In this document: positions 1,945-63,819 of the stretch, in pieces
How the letters are laid out: each line of letters starts with the position of its first letter
Numbering within the stretch: the first letter of the stretch is position 1
IMG/VR virus record: IMGVR_UViG_3300020154_000003
Span: 186,001-250,000 of that record
DNA: 64,000 nt
Direction: 5' to 3' (one strand)
Origin: a virus
The notes under the pieces: model-generated
Database searches by the model: none
Told to the model about the DNA's origin: nothing
The model's input: only the letters and a program-made list of their open reading frames with translations
Translations under genes and position numbers: made by a program

Positions 1945-2764
1945 GTCTTCCTTTTATGAAGTTTTTCTTTTTAAATTCTTCCCATGCAGTTTCATCACTA
2001 CGATCTCCAATAATACCAACAAAGGATTTGGGATTGCAGAAGAATGCTACTTTCACCATTTCCTCACCATACATTTGCTCATTATTTTCTGCAAATGCTT
2101 GAAACTTATCTCCAAGGTAATGCAGGCAAGCGGCCTTAACCATTTCCTTATCGGGATGGTTTAAAAGATAGATTCTAAGATCAGCAATTGTGTTGAATTG
2201 ATCAATGGAAACTTTTGTAGCGACAGTGGGGTATAATGTTAGAGGCGACTTAATTGGATATTGATAAACATATCCATTATATTCGTGGCCAGTACATTCG
2301 ATCATCAATTCTTGCTGATCTTTGAGTTTTTCATCAATGATTGCTTGAAGTTGTTCGTTTGAGAAATTTTCAGGGAGTGCTAACACCTTAGCTGACCAGA
2401 CAGTAACTGTAGGAGATTTACGTCTTATATCATCCATCAACCTTCCCATTTGATTATAGTGATCCGCTTCACGTTCATCCGCAACTTGTTTGAGCAAATG
2501 ATTCGATCTTTTGGCATTACCGTATACCACCCAATCACCGACTTCAATCTTTTCTGTTTCGGAAATAATGATTGGTGCAAACCATAATAATGGGTGAGTA
2601 ATATTACCACCAACAAAATCTTTGAAATAGCAGGTCGTTGTATATCCTCGTTGGTCAACCAGCAGAAGTTTTCCATCCGCTACCAGTACTTGTTCATTAG
2701 GAGGTAAAGCCTTTCCATCAGGCGACTCTCTGAGCCTCCTTGTTACTTTAGCTTTGATGTCCAT
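1934..2764 (-). CDS. Family A paralog (SETE/GDW protein)
   Basis: 276 aa, the longest family A member. Signature: VADGKLLLVD, APIIISETEKIEVGDWVV, VLALPENFSNEQLQAIIDEK and QELMIECTG, then a C-terminal extension of about 90 aa predicted to be helical. It overlaps the paralogs on both sides (11 and 17 bases), forming a three-gene tandem array. Function unknown. Confidence 0.75.
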   Translation of the reverse strand: MDIKAKVTRRLRESPDGKALPPNEQVLVADGKLLLVDQRGYTTTCYFKDFVGGNITHPLLWFAPIIISETEKIEVGDWVVYGNAKRSNHLLKQVADEREADHYNQMGRLMDDIRRKSPTVTVWSAKVLALPENFSNEQLQAIIDEKLKDQQELMIECTGHEYNGYVYQYPIKSPLTLYPTVATKVSIDQFNTIADLRIYLLNHPDKEMVKAACLHYLGDKFQAFAENNEQMYGEEMVKVAFFCNPKSFVGIIGDRSDETAWEEFKKKNFIKGRHGN

Positions 2765-3344
2765 GAGGTTTTTTTTTCAAATGTTCCTTATAAAATTTTT
2801 CAATCTTATCATACCACACGCCTTTTACGTAACCGTTTTCATATCCATCAACGTATGCTTGACGAATTAATTCTTTTACTTCGTCCGTGGTGTAAGTTGG
2901 TTCTTCATTATCGATAGGCAGGAATGTGACATGACCTTCAGAATTCAGTTTGACATAATATTGCACAGGAAGATACCAAGATTTATCCTCAACCTCTTCA
3001 CAGGCAACAACTACCTTTTGGTTTGGTGTGTATTCACCATCTTCAATGGCTTGAAGATACTCTGCTGATAAGTGTTCAGGAAGGACAATAACTTTCTTGC
3101 AATGAGTATGATAACCCTTTGAAGTGATTGTCGTTACATCATGTTCGCTTGCAGTTCTTATGCCAAGGGTAGTGTCTTTAATGTTAACCCATGAATCACC
3201 GAGCGTGATCGGTTCTGTTTCGGAGATGATTACGGATTTAACAAAATCTCCACCATCCTCAATAAGAAGGAATACGCCATCAGTCACAAAACACTTTGTT
3301 TTGTACCTTTGGTATTGTCTGGTATTTTTTACTTGAATTGCCAT
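2748..3344 (-). CDS. Family A paralog (SETE/GDW protein)
   Basis: 198 aa, shorter. Signature: VTDGVFLLIED, VIISETEPITLGDSWV, VIVLPEHLSAEYLQAIEDG, QKVVVACEEV and VKLNSEGHVTFLP, with a Lys-rich C-terminus. First gene of the tandem array. Function unknown. Confidence 0.75.
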   Translation of the reverse strand: MAIQVKNTRQYQRYKTKCFVTDGVFLLIEDGGDFVKSVIISETEPITLGDSWVNIKDTTLGIRTASEHDVTTITSKGYHTHCKKVIVLPEHLSAEYLQAIEDGEYTPNQKVVVACEEVEDKSWYLPVQYYVKLNSEGHVTFLPIDNEEPTYTTDEVKELIRQAYVDGYENGYVKGVWYDKIEKFYKEHLKKKPHGHQS

Positions 3345-3347
3345 ACT

Positions 3348-3779
3348 TTATCGTGGTACAAAAATAAGATCGTAACCCATCTTAGAGAGGATATTTTTCA
3401 ATCGCTTGATCTTTTCTTTTACTGTAGTATTTTGATCGTCATTAATTACGATTGCTTCATTTACTTCAGAAGTATTTCTAATCGTTCTACGCATTGAATT
3501 GGTGTGTGCATCAATATGATGATCAGCATATGTAAGATCAGGTATCAGCTTATTTAAGCTGTCAGGTGACACATTCGAAAGTAGATGTCTATCGGTAATG
3601 GTCTCATCCAATTGCATAGAGAATTGACCAAGGCAACACATGAACCCTTGCTCATTTAGAAGTCTGGTACACCCATTACCTCTGGCTGTTTCACTGGTGT
3701 TAATAGTTTCTTCTTGCTCCGTGCCACAACGCCAGAATTCCTCAAACAAAAGAAGGGGTTTCAGTTTAGTTTTTTTCAT
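3348..3779 (-). CDS. Conserved-looking phage protein (CCLG motif)
   Basis: 143 aa from the ATG whose TGA-coupled position (ATGA) overlaps the upstream stop; an in-frame upstream start would add 8 residues. It carries RCGTEQEETI, a LNEQGFMCCLGQ motif and a C-terminal NDDQNTTVKEKIKRLKNIL helix. The CCLG...LND layout resembles a small protein family seen in many phages, of unknown function. Confidence 0.65.
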   Translation of the reverse strand: MKKTKLKPLLLFEEFWRCGTEQEETINTSETARGNGCTRLLNEQGFMCCLGQFSMQLDETITDRHLLSNVSPDSLNKLIPDLTYADHHIDAHTNSMRRTIRNTSEVNEAIVINDDQNTTVKEKIKRLKNILSKMGYDLIFVPR

Positions 3780-4009
3780 ACGGGGAAATTTACTACTGAC
3801 CATGCCACGATTGTCTTACCTCCCGTGTAACCTTCCACAGACCAATGGTCTGTCTTAGAAAAGTAATTACCGAAAGCCACATGTTCAGTTTTGGTGTGTT
3901 GTGAAAGAAAGGCCACTAAGAGTCTTGGTGACACTCCGTTTTCTTTGTTCCACACATCATTTTGATCGATTGGTGGTTTCTTTTTATTGGGTGATGTCCA
4001 CTTTATCAT
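3776..4009 (-). CDS. DUF551-like protein
   Basis: 77 aa. The W-T-x(n)-P start, the central hydrophobic LLVAF strand, HVAFGNYFS and the C-terminal IVAWSVVNFPV fit the layout of DUF551 domains (W..P...VLV...Y...W...V..W..LP). Match judged by eye. It overlaps both neighbours, so it is translationally coupled. Function unknown. Confidence 0.55.
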   Translation of the reverse strand: MIKWTSPNKKKPPIDQNDVWNKENGVSPRLLVAFLSQHTKTEHVAFGNYFSKTDHWSVEGYTGGKTIVAWSVVNFPV

Positions 4010-4139
4010 GGTCGTTTTTTTTATCTTTGAGGTACTTATATATTTTCTCAGACGTTCGGAATTTAATGTAGGCTATCCACAATACGCCAAAAGCACAAAT
4101 GGTTAGCACTGACAGACCTATGATTTCTCGTATATCCAT
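3984..4139 (-). CDS. Small membrane protein
   Basis: 51 aa from the second ATG (MDIREIIGL); the first possible start would lie inside the tRNA-like element, so it was rejected. One transmembrane helix at about residues 6-24 and a basic C-terminal tail. It begins 6 bases after the encoded CCA of the tRNA-like element. Confidence 0.55.
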   Translation of the reverse strand: MDIREIIGLSVLTICAFGVLWIAYIKFRTSEKIYKYLKDKKNDHDKVDITQ

Positions 4140-4144
4140 TTTTC

Positions 4145-4206
4145 TGGTGAAGGGAGAGGGAATCGAACCCCCGATCAAAAACTCTAACCAACTGAGTTAT
4201 CCCTTC
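4145..4206 (-). tRNA. tRNA-like element lacking the anticodon arm
   Basis: 62 nt including an encoded CCA. Acceptor stem GAAGGGA/TCCCTTC is a perfect 7 bp, D arm ACTC/GAGT with an AGTTGGTTA loop is canonical, and the T arm has loop TTCGATT. Only TTTTGATC lies between D and T arms, so there is no anticodon stem. The remnant vaguely resembles a Lys(UUU) loop. It cannot decode as written: either a decayed tRNA or a tRNA mimic or processing signal. Confidence 0.6.
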
Positions 4207-4212
4207 ATTTTT

Positions 4213-4383
4213 TCAATTTTCCTTGAATGGCTTAACTTTACCAGTTTCGCTATCCACTACGAACTTTCGTTTCATAAACTCTCGGTTAAGATTGGCCTTA
4301 GGGTCATTCCTTAACACCATCGCTTTCTGAGATAGAGACAGTTCTGTGTAATATTTTATAATTTCAGCCATATGTTTATTCAT
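4213..4383 (-). CDS. Hypothetical protein, 56 aa
   Basis: The ORF starts at an ATG that overlaps the upstream stop as TAATG. N-terminal helix (MNKHMAEIIKYYTELSLSQ), then a basic middle and the strand-like end DSETGKVKPFKEN. It ends 6 bases before the tRNA-like element. Product not recognised. Confidence 0.55.
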   Translation of the reverse strand: MNKHMAEIIKYYTELSLSQKAMVLRNDPKANLNREFMKRKFVVDSETGKVKPFKEN

Positions 4384-4607
4384 TAACAATCAACATTGCA
4401 GGGGAATTGGCAGGTGCCACCCATAGTACAATTTTGACTACGACCAGTTGGGCTTGAAGGATCACCCCAAAACCCTCTTTTCACCAATTGTATAGAGACT
4501 TGAGCCTCAGTAGCCTTTCTGGAGAGTACTCGATATTTATCGTTGTACTTATCGGCTCTCCTTTTGGCCCTTGCTTTACGTTTTGCTATTTTTTCTGCTC
4601 TGGTCAT
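4383..4607 (-). CDS. Basic protein with Cys-rich C-terminus
   Basis: 74 aa. Residues 1-30 are very Lys/Arg-rich (nucleic-acid binding is plausible), and the C-terminus has four Cys (NCTMGGTCQFPCNVDC) that could bind a metal or form disulfides. Preceded by a TTTGCGTATAAT promoter motif. No family recognised. Confidence 0.6.
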   Translation of the reverse strand: MTRAEKIAKRKARAKRRADKYNDKYRVLSRKATEAQVSIQLVKRGFWGDPSSPTGRSQNCTMGGTCQFPCNVDC

Positions 4608-4617
4608 GATTTACAGT

Positions 4618-4629
4618 ATTATACGCAAA
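4618..4629 (-). promoter_or_regulatory. TTTGCGTATAAT phage promoter motif
   Basis: Copy of the recurring promoter element, 10 bases upstream of the start of the basic Cys-rich protein gene. Confidence 0.55.
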
Positions 4630-4642
4630 ATACTATAAATTG

Positions 4643-4903
4643 TTATTTTTCAACATGTTCATTCAAAATCTTCAGCAGTTCATCCAGATGTGCTTCTGTC
4701 TCGCGTGTGCCAAACGATGATCTTCTTTTGTGGATGTTGTCAAGGATTTCCATTACTCCCATCCCTCCACGTTCGTTCAGTCTTTTAAGGGTTTGCCCGT
4801 GGTTTTTTTGTGCCCATTCCTCATTCAATAGAGACATCGGGACAGATTTCGGACAGTTCTTATGAAACCTTCGAGACTCAGAATGAATTTCCATTGTGTC
4901 CAT
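4643..4903 (-). CDS. Hypothetical protein
   Basis: 86 aa, charged and helical (EEWAQKNHGQTLKRL...LDELLKILNEHVEK). A start at Met4 is also possible. A CTTAATTAAG palindrome lies directly upstream of the start. No family recognised. Confidence 0.6.
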   Translation of the reverse strand: MDTMEIHSESRRFHKNCPKSVPMSLLNEEWAQKNHGQTLKRLNERGGMGVMEILDNIHKRRSSFGTRETEAHLDELLKILNEHVEK

Positions 4904-4911
4904 ATCCTTAA

Positions 4912-5073
4912 TTAAGTTTTACCTCTTCGCATGGTCAGAGAAAACAACTCATCGGTTGCTTTCGTTTGATTGTAAAAGCCACCGTATTTTGTTAAGGTAG
5001 AATAGATGTCGTTCCAAATCCTTTGATCCTTCAAAGTCTTTTTCTTACGTGGATCGTATATAAGTTTTGCCAT
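4912..5073 (-). CDS. Hypothetical protein, 53 aa
   Basis: MAKLIYDPRKKKTLKDQRIW start, then a mixed charged sequence ending SLTMRRGKT. The stop lies inside the CTTAATTAAG palindrome. It fills the gap between flanking leftward genes neatly. Function unknown. Confidence 0.55.
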   Translation of the reverse strand: MAKLIYDPRKKKTLKDQRIWNDIYSTLTKYGGFYNQTKATDELFSLTMRRGKT

Positions 5074-5077
5074 GAGT

Positions 5078-5338
5078 TTAATCGCATTCACCTTGACAAA
5101 CTGATTTCAAATACCCACAGCTTGAGCATCGATTTTCTGATTCCCACGCATCCTGCTTGGCTTGTTCACGGTCATTCAATACCCATTCCTCTTTATCTTC
5201 GTCCCATACCATTCCTTCGTAAAAGCCTCCGGGGCCATTACTGGTAAAGAATTCTCTGTTAGTCATCTCACCTCTGGAACGATGATGGTCATCCCATTTG
5301 GTGTCATTTTCATTGTAACCCGGATATTTTTTAGCCAT
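5078..5338 (-). CDS. Small protein with C-terminal Cys motif
   Basis: 86 aa, acidic. It has a WDEDKEEWVL segment and a C-terminal CSSCGYLKSVCQGEC, compatible with a small zinc knuckle. It overlaps the upstream family B gene by 8 bases. Function unknown. Confidence 0.6.
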   Translation of the reverse strand: MAKKYPGYNENDTKWDDHHRSRGEMTNREFFTSNGPGGFYEGMVWDEDKEEWVLNDREQAKQDAWESENRCSSCGYLKSVCQGECD

Positions 5339-5618
5339 GTTGTAAATTTAGATAGGTCATAATTGTTTCATTATATTGTTTAAATTCAGTGTTTAACGCA
5401 CGTATAAGAACACCTCTGTTTCCGTTTTGTTCAAACTCCCATGCTTCATCTGCAGGGATGACAAATTTGTTTGTGTGTGTATCTAATATATCCCAAATTT
5501 GCTCGGTACGTCTATTCTTTTTGTTTCTTATTACGTATCGAGACTGTGTTTTATATCGTCTCAATCCTTTACGTATCAATCTCTGCTTACGATACTCATC
5601 AACAATATCTTCATACAT
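5331..5618 (-). CDS. Family B small orphan protein
   Basis: 95 aa. It has RYVIRNKKNRRTEQIWDILD, then the C-terminal LNTEFKQYNETIMTYL helix, the two hallmarks of family B (W-D-[VI]-x-D plus LN....xxY...[IL]..[YF]L). The N-terminus is strongly basic. Function unknown. Confidence 0.65.
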   Translation of the reverse strand: MYEDIVDEYRKQRLIRKGLRRYKTQSRYVIRNKKNRRTEQIWDILDTHTNKFVIPADEAWEFEQNGNRGVLIRALNTEFKQYNETIMTYLNLQHG

Positions 5619-5621
5619 AAC

Positions 5622-5816
5622 TTACATTTGGATGTAGTGCCTCCTGAGAACTTTTTCGTAAGCAACTAACAATTCTTCGTCATTAAACGTATTGAAATCC
5701 AACGTCTGAATCGACTTACCGAAGATTAGAAACTCACGCCACCGCATGAGACCTTTATCAAAACCATTATGTTCTTTTTTAATGTCTTCGATTCGTTGAA
5801 GAATAAGTTGTCTCAT
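5622..5816 (-). CDS. Small conserved-looking phage protein (NGF..G..RW)
   Basis: 64 aa, helical. It contains IKKEHNGFDKGLMRWREF and NDEELLVAYEKVLRRHY, resembling short phage proteins with an NGF.KG.MRW..F ... ELL..YE..LR layout. Function unknown. Confidence 0.6.
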   Translation of the reverse strand: MRQLILQRIEDIKKEHNGFDKGLMRWREFLIFGKSIQTLDFNTFNDEELLVAYEKVLRRHYIQM

Positions 5817-5827
5817 ATTATTATGGT

Positions 5828-6055
5828 TTAAAGGTTTTGCAGTTCACAAACATAAATGTCGGATTCAAATAAAGGTCTGAAATCTCTTTTGAATAAATCG
5901 GCAGGTCTATATGGTTTACCATTTACAGGAGCGTCAGGCAATTTCTTGTATTCCTCATCGGTTAAAAGACAAACATTTTCAAATCTAGCTGGCATAGACA
6001 CATTTCTTCCGATAGACTCTTTTTTTCTCCACGTATGGCCTTTATAACTAAACAT
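5828..6055 (-). CDS. Hypothetical protein
   Basis: 75 aa. LTDEEYKKLPDAPVNGKPYRPADLFKRDFRP occupies the middle (split here for length: LTDEEYKKLPD, then APVNGKPYRPADLF). It lies among family B genes but lacks their motifs. Function unknown. Confidence 0.55.
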   Translation of the reverse strand: MFSYKGHTWRKKESIGRNVSMPARFENVCLLTDEEYKKLPDAPVNGKPYRPADLFKRDFRPLFESDIYVCELQNL

Positions 6056-6059
6056 TTTA

Positions 6060-6365
6060 TTACGCCCTCACCAAAAAATCATACAAATTTATTTCATATG
6101 CAAAATGCTCGTTGCTCAGTGCAACATATAAGTTCTCCAATTCACCACGCTTATGATGTACCCAACCATCTACTTCATGTAAGAGAAATTTATTTTGAAA
6201 ATTATCCCATATGTCATACCATTTCTTTTCATCAGCATATGTGGTATCGTAAAATTTTCTCTCGGTATATTTATAGCGTCTCAGTTCTTGAGGCATGTAC
6301 TGACAAGTTATGACGATTGCCCTAACCTCTTCCAACTTCTCTAATACCTTTTCATAATCATTCAT
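6060..6365 (-). CDS. Family B small orphan protein
   Basis: 101 aa with a clear family B core: EKKWYDIWDNFQNKFLL, an acidic His-rich linker and the C-terminal LSNEHFAYEINLYDFL. It overlaps the next family B gene by 8 bases, so these are tandem copies. Function unknown. Confidence 0.7.
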   Translation of the reverse strand: MNDYEKVLEKLEEVRAIVITCQYMPQELRRYKYTERKFYDTTYADEKKWYDIWDNFQNKFLLHEVDGWVHHKRGELENLYVALSNEHFAYEINLYDFLVRA

Positions 6366-6591
6366 CTTTCAGATAATCATGTATTGTTTTTTCGTAATGA
6401 TAGTGTCCATCATTAAGAAACGACATCAAACCACTTATCTTTGATCTATGTCGTTCATGTCCTTCTTCAGCACTCAACACAAATTCTTTTTTAAATCGAT
6501 CCCATACGTCATCCCAATGAATTATACAATCATGTTCGTCATATCCTTGCCTTGACATCCAGACATACCTAACGTATTCAAAGTGGGGCAT
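6358..6591 (-). CDS. Family B small orphan protein
   Basis: 77 aa. HWDDVWDRFKKEFVLSAEEG followed by LMSFLNDGHYHYEKTIHDYL, nearly the same architecture as the downstream neighbour. Tandem paralog. Function unknown. Confidence 0.7.
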   Translation of the reverse strand: MPHFEYVRYVWMSRQGYDEHDCIIHWDDVWDRFKKEFVLSAEEGHERHRSKISGLMSFLNDGHYHYEKTIHDYLKDE

Positions 6592-6805
6592 TCCTAACGG
6601 CTTCCTGCCACTCCATTTCCAAATCCAACACAGTCTCAGCTTTCAAATCTCCACCAACGCTAGAGACCAAACCCATATGGTTTTCATAACCCATAAACCA
6701 CGTTGGAGTTAGGTCACTAACTTGTACTCGCACATAAGAATATTTGCTACCCTCACCTATTGGTTTGAATATCCAATACTGTGTTGTCTTTATAATGTGT
6801 TTCAT
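6578..6805 (-). CDS. Hypothetical protein
   Basis: 75 aa, beta-rich with several aromatics (YWIFKPIGEGSKYSYVRVQV) and a helical end (LDLEMEWQEAVRNA). It overlaps both neighbours. No family recognised. Confidence 0.6.
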   Translation of the reverse strand: MKHIIKTTQYWIFKPIGEGSKYSYVRVQVSDLTPTWFMGYENHMGLVSSVGGDLKAETVLDLEMEWQEAVRNAPL

Positions 6806-7035
6806 TTTCTTAAGAAATAATAAACGTCAAGATTGTAATACGTATACTCCATCAGGTTGTACTTGGCTGATAGTTGAATTTCTCTGCTTCGATAAATGGG
6901 TCTGTCTTCGAGAATATCCTTAGCAAATCTTTGCCATAACGATAATTGAGTTTTCCTTTTTAAGGATGGACAAGCATCGAAAAATGTTTTGATGTCATCA
7001 AGCACGTCATCGACTGATTGATTTGTGTGTATCAT
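6802..7035 (-). CDS. Hypothetical protein, possible divergent family B member
   Basis: 77 aa. The C-terminal NLMEYTYYNLDVYYFL resembles the family B tail, but the W-D core is absent. ATGA overlap with the next gene. Function unknown. Confidence 0.55.
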   Translation of the reverse strand: MIHTNQSVDDVLDDIKTFFDACPSLKRKTQLSLWQRFAKDILEDRPIYRSREIQLSAKYNLMEYTYYNLDVYYFLRK

Positions 7036-7502
7036 ATTCCAAGCTTTCTCGCAACAACCACATCAACATAATATATGACGGAAGCATAACTATCATCGGA
7101 GCGACCCTTTTCAAGTAGACCTTGCTTAACAAAGAAGTTTGCTACTCTAATTTCATCACTACTCATCAACTTCCTCAGTACAGGCCCATCTGCAAACCTA
7201 CTTAAAAATTCTAATCCTGTCTTGGAAAGGGGAGGAAGATTATCGAATCGACTAGCATGTTGGATGCACAGCCTAACCTTAGCTTCCTCAACAGCTTCAT
7301 CGAATGTGGTGTGCTCTTTTACGTCAAACATTGCTGGCAGACTACCGTGTCCTATTTCGTGGTATTCGTACAGTCCTTCCTCATTCTTTACTATTCTCCC
7401 ACGATAGGTGTCTTTGAAAAACACCTTAGCGATTTTAGGGTCGTTTAGGTCTTTTATCGGCACCTTTACTTTAACAAAATTTTCTGTATACCACATATTC
7501 AT
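7032..7502 (-). CDS. Hypothetical protein with winged-helix-like C-terminus
   Basis: 156 aa. The N-terminal half is beta-rich; residues about 95-156 (LSKTGLEFLSRFADG...NFFVKQGLLEKGRSD) look like a winged-helix layout with a following strand. No family assigned, and the fold is an inference from residue pattern only. Confidence 0.55.
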   Translation of the reverse strand: MNMWYTENFVKVKVPIKDLNDPKIAKVFFKDTYRGRIVKNEEGLYEYHEIGHGSLPAMFDVKEHTTFDEAVEEAKVRLCIQHASRFDNLPPLSKTGLEFLSRFADGPVLRKLMSSDEIRVANFFVKQGLLEKGRSDDSYASVIYYVDVVVARKLGI

Positions 7503-7882
7503 TATGCGTTTTGTCCTATCAGATTTTCGTAAAGAATCATATACCTTCTACGAATAGAAAAGTTCAACTTGTATTTCTTTTCTACCGCAAGCATTTTCTT
7601 AAAATCTGCCAACGTTATCCAGTAGTTGTTATTGCAGAAATTACCACAAAATCCTGCGATCTCATCTTTCACCTCAATGGGTAAATCTTTTCTACCCGAT
7701 GCCTGTTTCAAGCAGCCAACTAAGGTTTGAACATCAGCAGGATAGACTCTATGGTAGCATAGGATGGCGATGTCTCTCAACTTTTTTAGGGATGCTGGTT
7801 TGATTTCCACTTTAGAATATTGGAGATCACGCAGATGTGGTTCCAGTTCGCTTGCCTTAACGATTTTTCTTATAACTATCAT
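7502..7882 (-). CDS. Hypothetical protein
   Basis: 126 aa, mostly helical and basic. It has a CGNFCNNNYW segment and an FSIRRRYMILYENLIGQ C-terminus. It overlaps the family A gene upstream by 26 bases. Function unknown. Confidence 0.6.
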   Translation of the reverse strand: MIVIRKIVKASELEPHLRDLQYSKVEIKPASLKKLRDIAILCYHRVYPADVQTLVGCLKQASGRKDLPIEVKDEIAGFCGNFCNNNYWITLADFKKMLAVEKKYKLNFSIRRRYMILYENLIGQNA

Positions 7883-8468
7883 TATTAACTACGTTTTCTT
7901 CAAACCAACGATTGATTGTATTCTGTCCTAAGATATTACCAATTTGCCATTCTTTCGCAAATTCGACTGCGATAACTTTCATTTCATCAAGCGAGTATAA
8001 TCTTGGCAAACGAATGATTACATGCCCATTCATTAGTTCAACTCCCCAACAACCAACAGCACCGTAACATTCGATCAATAATTTATCACCTTTTCTCACA
8101 TTACCATCTGCGATCATTTGTAAATCTTTGAATGAAAAGTGATCCGGGAGTGCAAGAACCTTAAACCATCCTAAGGACTTCGCTTCTTCAGGAGGAAAGT
8201 TATTATCACATCTTTCAAGACTGCCGTTATTGTAATAAATCCAATCACCTATTTCAATCGGTTCTTTCTCCGAAATGAGTAACGGTTTTAAATATTTACC
8301 AATTCCCTTAATACGACCGTTGGAGGAAGTGAAGGCAACCCTCAAGGTCGAATTAGTTGCGTACCACAATTTAGCTTCTTCTGGTTGACATTCGATTAAA
8401 ACAAGTTTACCCTCTGCCATTGGGCAATTGGGTAGATCAGGTAAGGTAATGGTATGTTTTACTTTCAT
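7857..8468 (-). CDS. Family A paralog (SETE/GDW protein)
   Basis: 203 aa. Signature: MAEGKLVLIE, KPLLISEKEPIEIGDWIYY, VLALPDHFSFKDLQMIADG, GDKLLIECYG and a strand with VIIRLP, then a C-terminal helix. It is separated from the 1.2-3.3 kb array, so the family is dispersed in the left arm. Function unknown. Confidence 0.75.
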   Translation of the reverse strand: MKVKHTITLPDLPNCPMAEGKLVLIECQPEEAKLWYATNSTLRVAFTSSNGRIKGIGKYLKPLLISEKEPIEIGDWIYYNNGSLERCDNNFPPEEAKSLGWFKVLALPDHFSFKDLQMIADGNVRKGDKLLIECYGAVGCWGVELMNGHVIIRLPRLYSLDEMKVIAVEFAKEWQIGNILGQNTINRWFEENVVNNDSYKKNR

Positions 8469-8701
8469 GCTTGGGCTGCTAGTTGTGCAAATAACCTCTT
8501 GTCTTCGATTCCATAGCCTGTATTATCTCCCAAAAGTTCCAATGCATCTTTACGCATGGTGTTTACATCCGTTGTTTTGAGGACTTCATCGATGTCTTCA
8601 GGAGTCACATAGTCCCGGCCATTAGCAATGGCGATCTTTACAAGGGAATTATCCTTGTGCGCTTCCTGAAGGTGCTTATGATAATCTTCAATAACTGACA
8701 T
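8465..8701 (-). CDS. Hypothetical protein
   Basis: 78 aa, acidic and helical (VIEDYHKHLQEAHKDNSLVK...). First gene of a leftward operon: a TTTACGTATAAT promoter motif lies 20 bases upstream, and it overlaps the family A gene by ATGA. Function unknown. Confidence 0.65.
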   Translation of the reverse strand: MSVIEDYHKHLQEAHKDNSLVKIAIANGRDYVTPEDIDEVLKTTDVNTMRKDALELLGDNTGYGIEDKRLFAQLAAQA

Positions 8702-8720
8702 GATGACTGGTTTTTAGGTT

Positions 8721-8732
8721 ATTATACGTAAA
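8721..8732 (-). promoter_or_regulatory. TTTACGTATAAT phage promoter motif
   Basis: Perfect copy of the recurring element, upstream of the leftward operon that begins with the 78-aa gene. Confidence 0.6.
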
Positions 8733-8784
8733 GATAGTGGATTTGTTTTAATATGAAAAACTATTACAAACCATGAATAATGCA

Positions 8785-8792
8785 TATATTTG
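8785..8792 (+). promoter_or_regulatory. TATATTTG host-type -7 box
   Basis: Matches the Bacteroidetes housekeeping -7 consensus TAnnTTTG. The box ends 6 bases before the ATG at 8799, so the mRNA is probably leaderless or nearly so. Confidence 0.5.
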
Positions 8793-8798
8793 TACCTT

Positions 8799-9269
8799 AT
8801 GGATGAAAAACAGGATTTCGACCTAACTTCTGAAGATGTTCGAGAGGCCAGACGCATGGTCGATGAGGCTAGTGCCATCATAACAATTTATCGTCCCAAT
8901 GGTGGCGATATGAGTATTACCGTGGGCAAACCCGCTAAAAAAGTATTGGTACGCTATTTTCACCTGCTGACAGGGATAGAGTACACACGGGTTAAGGAAT
9001 CCTTAATTAACTATGGTACTAACGATTATTATGATGGGAATGAGATCGATGGTATTAAGAAGATATTTTTTAAAAATACGAAAACTAGATTTTATCACAC
9101 AATAAACGATATTAATCTCTATTACAAGAAAATCATATGTTTATCAAGATATGAATTTTTGGTTTACACCTTAAGTGAGGATGAAAACAGAGAACGTGAA
9201 ATGAAGAAAAAGTTTCGGTTGGATTATGTCGCTACTATGAGGGAATTCATTGCTCAACCAAAAAGTTAG
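8799..9269 (+). CDS. Hypothetical protein, isolated rightward gene
   Basis: 156 aa, counted from the ATG at 8799; an in-frame TTG 9 bases upstream lies inside the TATATTTG box and is rejected. Acidic N-terminus (MDEKQDFDLTSEDV), basic aromatic-rich C-terminal half (YHTINDINLYYKKIICL). It is an inverted single gene in a leftward region and ends overlapping a convergent gene by 23 bases. Function unknown; it may be an early gene. Confidence 0.65.
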   Translation: MDEKQDFDLTSEDVREARRMVDEASAIITIYRPNGGDMSITVGKPAKKVLVRYFHLLTGIEYTRVKESLINYGTNDYYDGNEIDGIKKIFFKNTKTRFYHTINDINLYYKKIICLSRYEFLVYTLSEDENREREMKKKFRLDYVATMREFIAQPKS

Positions 9270-14525: not shown

Positions 14526-14682
14526 TGGCGAAGGGAGGGACTCGAACCCTCATTCTGTAGATCGGTCTTGCTCGTCTACAGCGTTGGTCTCAGCCTTGGG
14601 CAAGAAATCGTAAGCCTTTACCTCACGACCTATCCATATTGGCCTGATCCACAACTGCGTTTACCAATTTCGCCACCTTGCC
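14526..14682 (-). tRNA. Interrupted tRNA-Leu-like gene (probable GAG anticodon)
   Basis: Acceptor GGCAAGG pairs with CCTT(C)GCC (one bulged C), D arm GCG/CGC has a class II loop, and T arm GAGGG/CCCTC has loop TTCGAGT. The anticodon region is split: GTTG (14652-14655) and CAAC flank loop CTGAGAC (14587-14593), with about 58 extra nt between (14594-14651, starting TGGATC). A long variable region holds a 7-bp CTGTAGA/TCTACAG stem. No encoded CCA. Boundaries are good to about 2 nt, and the anticodon is less certain than in the 26.8-kb gene. Confidence 0.6.
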
Positions 14683-26586: not shown

Positions 26587-26649
26587 TAGTACTGGCAGCG
26601 TCCACGATCTCACCAGACGCATTTTAAGCCGTTTCGCACACCAGTACTA
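26587..26649. repeat. 9-bp inverted repeat TAGTACTGG / CCAGTACTA
   Basis: Perfect 9-base arms separated by 45 bases, at the point where rightward and leftward transcription converge. No T tract, so not a standard intrinsic terminator. Confidence 0.5.
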
Positions 26650-26701: not shown

Positions 26702-26872
26702 TGGATGATGACAGGACTCGAACCTGCATCGGAAGTCGATTGCCTCTATCCCGAACCTAAGTGTTTTTATTACCTTACTAAATTAAGGGAGCATTGAATG
26801 CGATCAGCTTAATCGAGAAGGATTGTGGTGTCAGTCCACGGGTAGCGGATAACCCATTTCGCCACATCATCC
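26702..26872 (-). tRNA. Interrupted tRNA-Leu(UAG) gene
   Basis: Acceptor GGATGATG/CATCATCC pairs perfectly, D arm GCG/CGC, T arm loop TTCGAGT. Exon 1 ends in CCCG (26839-26842) and exon 2 starts ACTTAGGTTCGGG. Joining them gives stem CCCGA/TCGGG and the canonical Leu(UAG) loop CTTAGGT. About 76 nt (26763-26838, starting TGGACTG) lie between. The variable arm contains ATCG/CGAT, as in a class II tRNA. No encoded CCA. Too small an insert for a known group I or II intron. Confidence 0.7.
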
Positions 26873-63729: not shown

Positions 63730-63819
63730 TAGGGGTGAGAGGATTCGAACCTCCACTCTTCGGGGCTTCAGTAATGCAACCACAGCCCCGATGTTTTATC
63801 CAGTTAAACTACCTCCCCT
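63730..63819 (-). tRNA. Interrupted class I tRNA (probable Phe GAA)
   Basis: D arm GTTT/AAAC, T arm GGAGG/CCTCT with loop TTCGAAT, variable AGAGT and a perfect anticodon stem TCGGG/CCCGA. The loop, however, is 22 nt. Removing 15 nt (63772-63786) leaves loop CTGAAGC, a normal Phe(GAA) loop. An alternative reading keeps CTGTGGT (His GUG). The acceptor stem has one mismatch. No encoded CCA. A TCTCCGTATAAT promoter lies just upstream. Confidence 0.65.

Follow-up and report, generated by a model that had tools for sequence, protein, structure and literature searches.

Group I introns interrupt the anticodon arm of tRNA-Leu genes in bacteria and phages and carry a catalytic core; introns of group I or group II are about 200 nt long or more. 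The protein-spliced tRNA introns of archaea and eukaryotes (bulge-helix-bulge, EndA) are short and, in archaea, occupy several tRNA positions. Bacterial Y RNAs (YrlA, RF02553), found in bacteria and phages, are tRNA-like without taking part in decoding; a stem that binds Ro60 closes their permuted tRNA-like module, and they go with a TROVE protein. In the Lak megaphages, phage tRNAs were reported with 'enigmatic' introns that had been tested against Rfam (Devoto et al. 2019, PMC6784885). Here we describe an interrupted tRNA-Leu(UAG)-like element in a 64,000-nt stretch (the window, G000:186001-250000) of G000, a 366,038-base virus record that represents a very large phage (366 kb).

Anatomy and descent of the interrupted tRNA-Leu(UAG)-like element

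The element lies on the minus strand at 26872-26702 of the window (G000:212702-212872). Its 5' half reads GGATGATG-TG-GCG-AAATGGGTTATC-CGC-TA-CCCG-[76 nt] and its 3' half A-CTTAGGT-TCGGG-[22 nt]-GCAGG-TTCGAGT-CCTGT-CATCATCC-A. The 5' strand of the acceptor stem, GGATGATG (26865..26872), forms eight Watson-Crick pairs with 26710-26703, and the acceptor 3' strand CATCATCC is followed by A73 (26702..26710), with CCA not encoded. Both the sequence and the ARAGORN drawing place the D arm, GCG-AAATGGGTTATC-CGC with a 3-bp stem and a Leu-type TGGCGAAAT.GG, at 26845..26862, and the T arm GCAGG-TTCGAGT-CCTGT occupies 26711..26727. A sequence-only reading of this DNA had held the 8-bp acceptor, the D arm and the T arm to be intact, and every piece that it named was found in place on the minus strand.

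The anticodon arm is divided. CCCG (26839..26842) supplies four bases of the 5' stem strand and pairs with 26753-26750; it is followed by the 76-nt insert (TGGACTGAC...AAAAAC, 26763..26838), and then by A, the anticodon loop CTTAGGT (anticodon TAG) and the 3' strand TCGGG (26750..26762). The insert interrupts the 5' strand of the anticodon stem, confirming that the break is 5' of the anticodon loop. When 26838-26763 is excised in silico, CCCG and A complete a five-pair anticodon stem with the tRNA-Leu(UAG) loop (CCCGA-CTTAGGT-TCGGG), the perfect arm that had been claimed for removal of the 76 nt. Measured against a working tRNA-Leu(UAG), the spliced form would have a 5-bp anticodon arm and a canonical loop, and the Leu-type variable arm of a stem and short loop is absent: the variable region (26728..26749) is 22 nt long without a canonical Leu variable stem. 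The D stem and the anticodon stem are separated by two nucleotides, where one is usual. The element is intergenic and begins 9 nt past the stop codon of a co-directional upstream gene. Just 3' of it is an inverted repeat (AGTACTGG/CCAGTACT, 8-9 bp around ~45 nt, window 26587-26649), which may encode a further small RNA, tRNA-like or hairpin-shaped.

The anticodon arm of a tRNA that is otherwise normal, its abnormal variable region apart, is broken by an insert without a known RNA class. The insert matched no Rfam family, and Rfam over the window gave no group I or group II catalytic core, either at the gathering score or with the E limit raised to 5, in agreement with the earlier statement that the 76 nt hold no group I intron; their length is also below the ~200 nt of such introns. 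Folding of the insert is no better than chance against shuffles (z -1.26), and that of the whole element is slightly better (z -1.57). Inspection of the junctions by eye found no 4-bp helix joining the two as in a bulge-helix-bulge. A second copy of the insert was not found elsewhere in G000, and an origin as a copied piece of the genome was rejected because this search was empty.

Standard annotation misses the element: ARAGORN at default settings reports zero tRNAs in the window, which holds four tRNA-like genes. With introns allowed, ARAGORN returns Leu(tag) with a 76-nt intron at this place. We dropped this call as proof, since 241 of 1,333 arbitrary deletions (18%) between the D and T arms of the element are also accepted as tRNA. 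In other contigs, most of the introns called by ARAGORN corresponded to tandem tRNAs, and these calls were likewise set aside, as was a tandem-tRNA pattern scan of IMG/VR, which gave, among the matches listed, mostly adjacent normal tRNAs.

The split arm was therefore judged by shuffling, in which the bases beside the D arm were kept, the rest of the region between the D and T arms was randomized in 20,000 shuffles, and restoration of a canonical loop with a paired stem was scored. The arm was restored with five Watson-Crick pairs around a Leu anticodon in 0.18% of the shuffles (P 0.0018), while any canonical loop with at least four Watson-Crick pairs occurred in 2.0% (1.7% in another run). 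Because a Leu anticodon with five pairs arises in just 0.18% of shuffles, the element very probably descends from a tRNA-Leu(UAG) gene, and the split anticodon arm is a real feature. We consider it very improbable that the arm is a coincidence and the element an unrelated structured RNA whose shell is tRNA-like. A free break point does yield split arms, as the 2% for any canonical loop indicates, and about nine odd elements were inspected; against this, the five pairs here enclose a Leu anticodon inside a Leu-type frame, and a sister element, F2, gives the same indication.

Odd tRNA-like genes in the same genome and in other phages

More than 50 tRNA genes are carried by G000, nearly all clustered at 89-126 kb, and a normal tRNA-Leu(UAG) gene is present at G000:122348. 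Scanning for T arms that do not belong to ordinary tRNAs identified nine tRNA-like places, and G000 has at least eight odd tRNA-like genes besides the Leu(UAG)-like element. Four of the nine places stand alone in the window, each with a defective anticodon region. F2 (14526..14682, minus strand) is Leu(GAG)-like and reads GTTG, 58 nt (14651-14594), CTGAGAC CAAC; its break is at nearly the same place as that of the Leu(UAG)-like element. Its inner four pairs and Leu loop are restored with a shuffle P of 0.007, its acceptor has one bulge, and ARAGORN rejects it in spliced form. Both inserts begin G/TGGA (TGGA at the insert start). The similarity between the two elements is not significant for the inserts (P 0.62) or for the variable regions (P 0.72), and kinship of either was rejected.

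The gene at 4148..4206 (minus strand; 59 nt, CCA encoded; Rfam tRNA 45.4 bits) has no anticodon arm. Because the arm is absent no splicing could mend it, and it is beyond repair by that route. The gene at 63730..63819 (minus strand; Rfam tRNA 44.3 bits) has a ~22-nt loop replacing the 7-nt anticodon loop. The Leu(UAG)-like element, F2 and 4206-4148 each begin 6 to 10 nt past the stop of a co-directional reading frame, and because of these positions all three are probably cut out of operon transcripts. Elsewhere in the genome, a tRNA-like gene at G000:93972-94085 has a 7-bp acceptor stem and, in the D loop, ~38 extra nt that look like a Tyr anticodon arm, and two CTA-anticodon tRNAs (amber suppressors) are located at G000:123540 and 125586. 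Despite these two tRNAs, the open reading frames give no sign of TAG recoding.

Genes neighbouring the Leu(UAG)-like element offered no route to relatives close by. A relative, G013, was reached via alignment of HNH-RNA ligases; it is a 371-kb phage, most of which aligns collinearly with G000 at ~65-75% DNA identity. It contains no copy of the Leu(UAG)-like element, of F2 or of the anticodon-arm-less gene. Only T arms match, and the sole other match is an 18-nt stretch of the 22-nt variable region, at G013:340784-340801. The first third of the window is a variable region, with few conserved genes at 186-220 kb.

A different long tRNA-like gene is shared by the two phages. Element E (G000:115090-115263, L033:3090-3263) is 174 nt long and consists of a Leu-like tRNA shell whose variable arm carries a long insert; the homolog of element E at G013:323719-323543 has 74% identity. 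Among 43 consensus pairs, 8 differ on both sides, 3 differ on a single side and 0 are broken, and part of this covariation, which rests on two sequences, sits in a hairpin inside the insert. With both-sided changes and no broken pair, the comparison indicates, short of proof, that the phage group preserves the structure of one or more of its long tRNA-like RNAs, and does so with the insert in place.

Interrupted frames also occur in other phages. In 124 other tRNA-array contigs together with G000, 36 of 103 orphan T arms have an upstream acceptor partner, against 7.4 expected. Across 28 interrupted tRNA frames, restorable split arms numbered 9 for breaks in the 5' stem strand (1.7 in shuffles) and 16 for breaks in the loop (4.4 in shuffles), where counts are per break position and a single gene may count repeatedly. 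Clear cases are found in L141 (41-nt insert, Rfam tRNA 46 bits) and at L087 4005-4120 (Rfam tRNA 47 bits). The same T-arm scan recovered the published insert of Lak-A1 tRNA-Thr(TGT). In Salicola phage SCTP-2 (L204:3730-3847), the anticodon arm of a tRNA-His(GTG) holds a T-arm minihelix closed by GGCCTT/AAGGCC.

Several of these arrays have features of their own. A motif around TTCCTATT occurs about ten times in the tRNA array of L141 (reverse complement ~2439-9004), both inside interrupted tRNAs and in other non-coding places. Nested tRNA-like genes at L060:7527-7829 and L072:190-505 have acceptor halves that are swapped, and share CCCTTAAATGGG in an insert hairpin. The acceptor stem AGTCAGG/CCTGACT is common to several different odd tRNA-like genes per phage in L056, L077, L147 and L158. 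Permuted tRNA-like genes gave 13 matches in other phages. The two best, both in L096, match the YrlA Y RNA family below its gathering score of 69 (49.1 bits with E 9e-10, and 42.5 bits with E 7e-8) and are adjoined by a TROVE gene, and permuted genes were accordingly dropped as proof of splicing. The L096 array (L096:10085-11040) comprises about seven Y RNA-like elements beside the TROVE gene with the motif GTTTGNGGGCCG...GGGTTAYC...TTTGCCC; some hold a permuted tRNA-like module and others only an anticodon-like hairpin. At L087:2640-2790 is a permuted tRNA-Asn(GTT)-like element with pairing flanks and a weak YrlA match (36 bits).

A retained insert, splicing or decay

Sequence alone cannot decide whether the 76 nt are retained, are spliced out or mark a decaying gene. 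We lean, tentatively, to a tRNA-Leu(UAG)-derived gene whose tRNA-shaped RNA retains the insert, and slightly favour this over a spliced tRNA. The grounds are a sibling that lacks the anticodon arm, a variable region that is abnormal, the presence of a normal Leu(UAG) gene, and element E. The tRNA shell is intact though its middle is not, and the siblings have an anticodon arm that is enlarged or, past any mending by splicing, missing. The variable region is unlike that of a working tRNA-Leu, and the normal Leu(UAG) gene would make a spliced product redundant. The excess of orphan T arms that keep an acceptor partner and the covarying hairpin within the insert of element E, conserved in G013, are also consistent with retention. 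Other observations fit less well. The restored Leu(UAG) arm is perfect and the sister is split near the same place, as an intron would leave them; the element has no homolog and selection on it is not evident; its fold as a whole is just slightly above shuffles; and the analogy with element E may fail.

If the insert is retained, a tRNA-Leu(UAG) gene would have acquired 76 nt that split the 5' strand of the anticodon stem, while the part made of the acceptor, T and D arms would still fold as in a tRNA. RNase P and 3'-end enzymes could then release a tRNA-shaped RNA from the operon transcript, and the anticodon region, with decoding no longer required, would vary freely. Such a product might persist as a stable small RNA, might provide a site at which the transcript is processed, or might act as a decoy that draws host enzymes which bind or cut tRNA. 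A retained insert would place the element among the little-studied tRNA-shaped RNAs of phage tRNA arrays; at least one of these, element E, shows conservation accompanied by compensatory changes.

Removal of the 76 nt by splicing, as the sequence-only reading proposed, is no more than a candidate reading: the variable arm is abnormal, the spliced form would be redundant beside the normal gene, 4148-4206 is unmendable, and the conserved sibling retains its insert with covariation. A true intron, removed from the RNA to give a working tRNA-Leu(UAG) by a route that would probably be protein-based, with a nuclease and a phage RNA ligase, nonetheless has evidence behind it, although we hold it to be unlikely. 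The perfect restored arm, the restorable F2 with its near-identical break and the shared G/TGGA all point this way, as do the excess of restorable arms broken in the 5' stem strand and the published Lak tRNA introns (PMC6784885). Two RNA ligases are encoded in G000, one in the window (48373-47357) and the other an HNH-RNA ligase fusion (phrog_24030; G000:110759-111874, L040:11759-12874) within the tRNA cluster. Against an intron, the insert has no group I or group II core and no bulge-helix-bulge visible by eye, the inserts of the two split genes are dissimilar, and spliced F2 is rejected by ARAGORN. Neither the tRNA-splicing endonuclease EndA (PF01974) nor RtcB (PF01139) was found in G000.

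The HNH-RNA ligase fusion has relatives at 302 loci in viral contigs, and such fusions have been described as RNA repair proteins (PMC7824862). Caulobacter phage CcrBL9 encodes an HNH-ligase together with 28 canonical tRNAs and has zero orphan T arms, and a restorable split tRNA was found near HNH-RNA ligases at 1 of 82 loci, against 0.3 expected. The presence of this ligase does not predict split tRNAs, and we judged the case for it as the splicing enzyme insufficient on these grounds. It is doubtful, more so than splicing in general, that large phages have their own tRNA splicing route, neither group I nor EndA/RtcB, which would remove short anticodon-arm inserts with the Leu(UAG)-like element and F2 (14526-14682) as substrates. 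In such a route the exons would be sealed by an RNA ligase of the phage, for which the HNH-RNA ligase fusion is a candidate. If the element is spliced, it would represent a bacterial virus with tRNA splicing by a new mechanism.

Decay would mean that a lone tRNA-Leu(UAG) gene in a variable part of the genome was broken by insertion and is being lost. Its absence from the collinear G013, the scarcity of conserved genes at 186-220 kb, the normal Leu(UAG) gene elsewhere in G000 and the defects in the other lone tRNA-like genes of the window would all suit such a loss. We nevertheless rate decay as somewhat less probable than an intron: the acceptor stem retains all eight pairs, the D and T arms are intact, two genes are broken at nearly the same spot, which is unexpected for random damage, and the sibling element E appears to be under selection.

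Comparison with described systems

Group I introns share with this element the interruption of a tRNA-Leu anticodon arm and differ in their catalytic core, of which the 76-nt insert has none. Two group I-like examples among the phages compared here (L095 and L160) are ~300 nt long and were assigned to group I from their appearance rather than through an Rfam match. The short insert recalls the protein-spliced introns of archaea and eukaryotes, whereas G000 has no EndA gene and no bulge-helix-bulge was seen by eye at the junctions. Y RNAs are alike in being tRNA-like; the YrlA-like elements have a permuted order and stand beside a TROVE protein in G002, whereas the Leu(UAG)-like element is not permuted, G000 has no TROVE gene, and no YrlA match occurs near the element.

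The Lak tRNA introns are similar in several respects: the phage is large with many tRNAs, a short insert without a reported class breaks the anticodon arm, and a normal tRNA results when the insert is removed. The Lak Thr insert is 114 nt long, lies in the anticodon loop and contains a tRNA-like fold, whereas the insert described here is 76 nt long, lies in the 5' stem strand instead of the loop and contains no tRNA. Lak inserts do not differ between cohorts, whereas the Leu(UAG)-like element has no homolog. The sequence-only reading had called this kind of interruption undescribed, which cannot be maintained given the unclassified phage tRNA inserts reported for Lak phages in 2019 (PMC6784885). 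The kind is already known; what is new in detail is that the insert lies in the stem and that two Leu genes are split.
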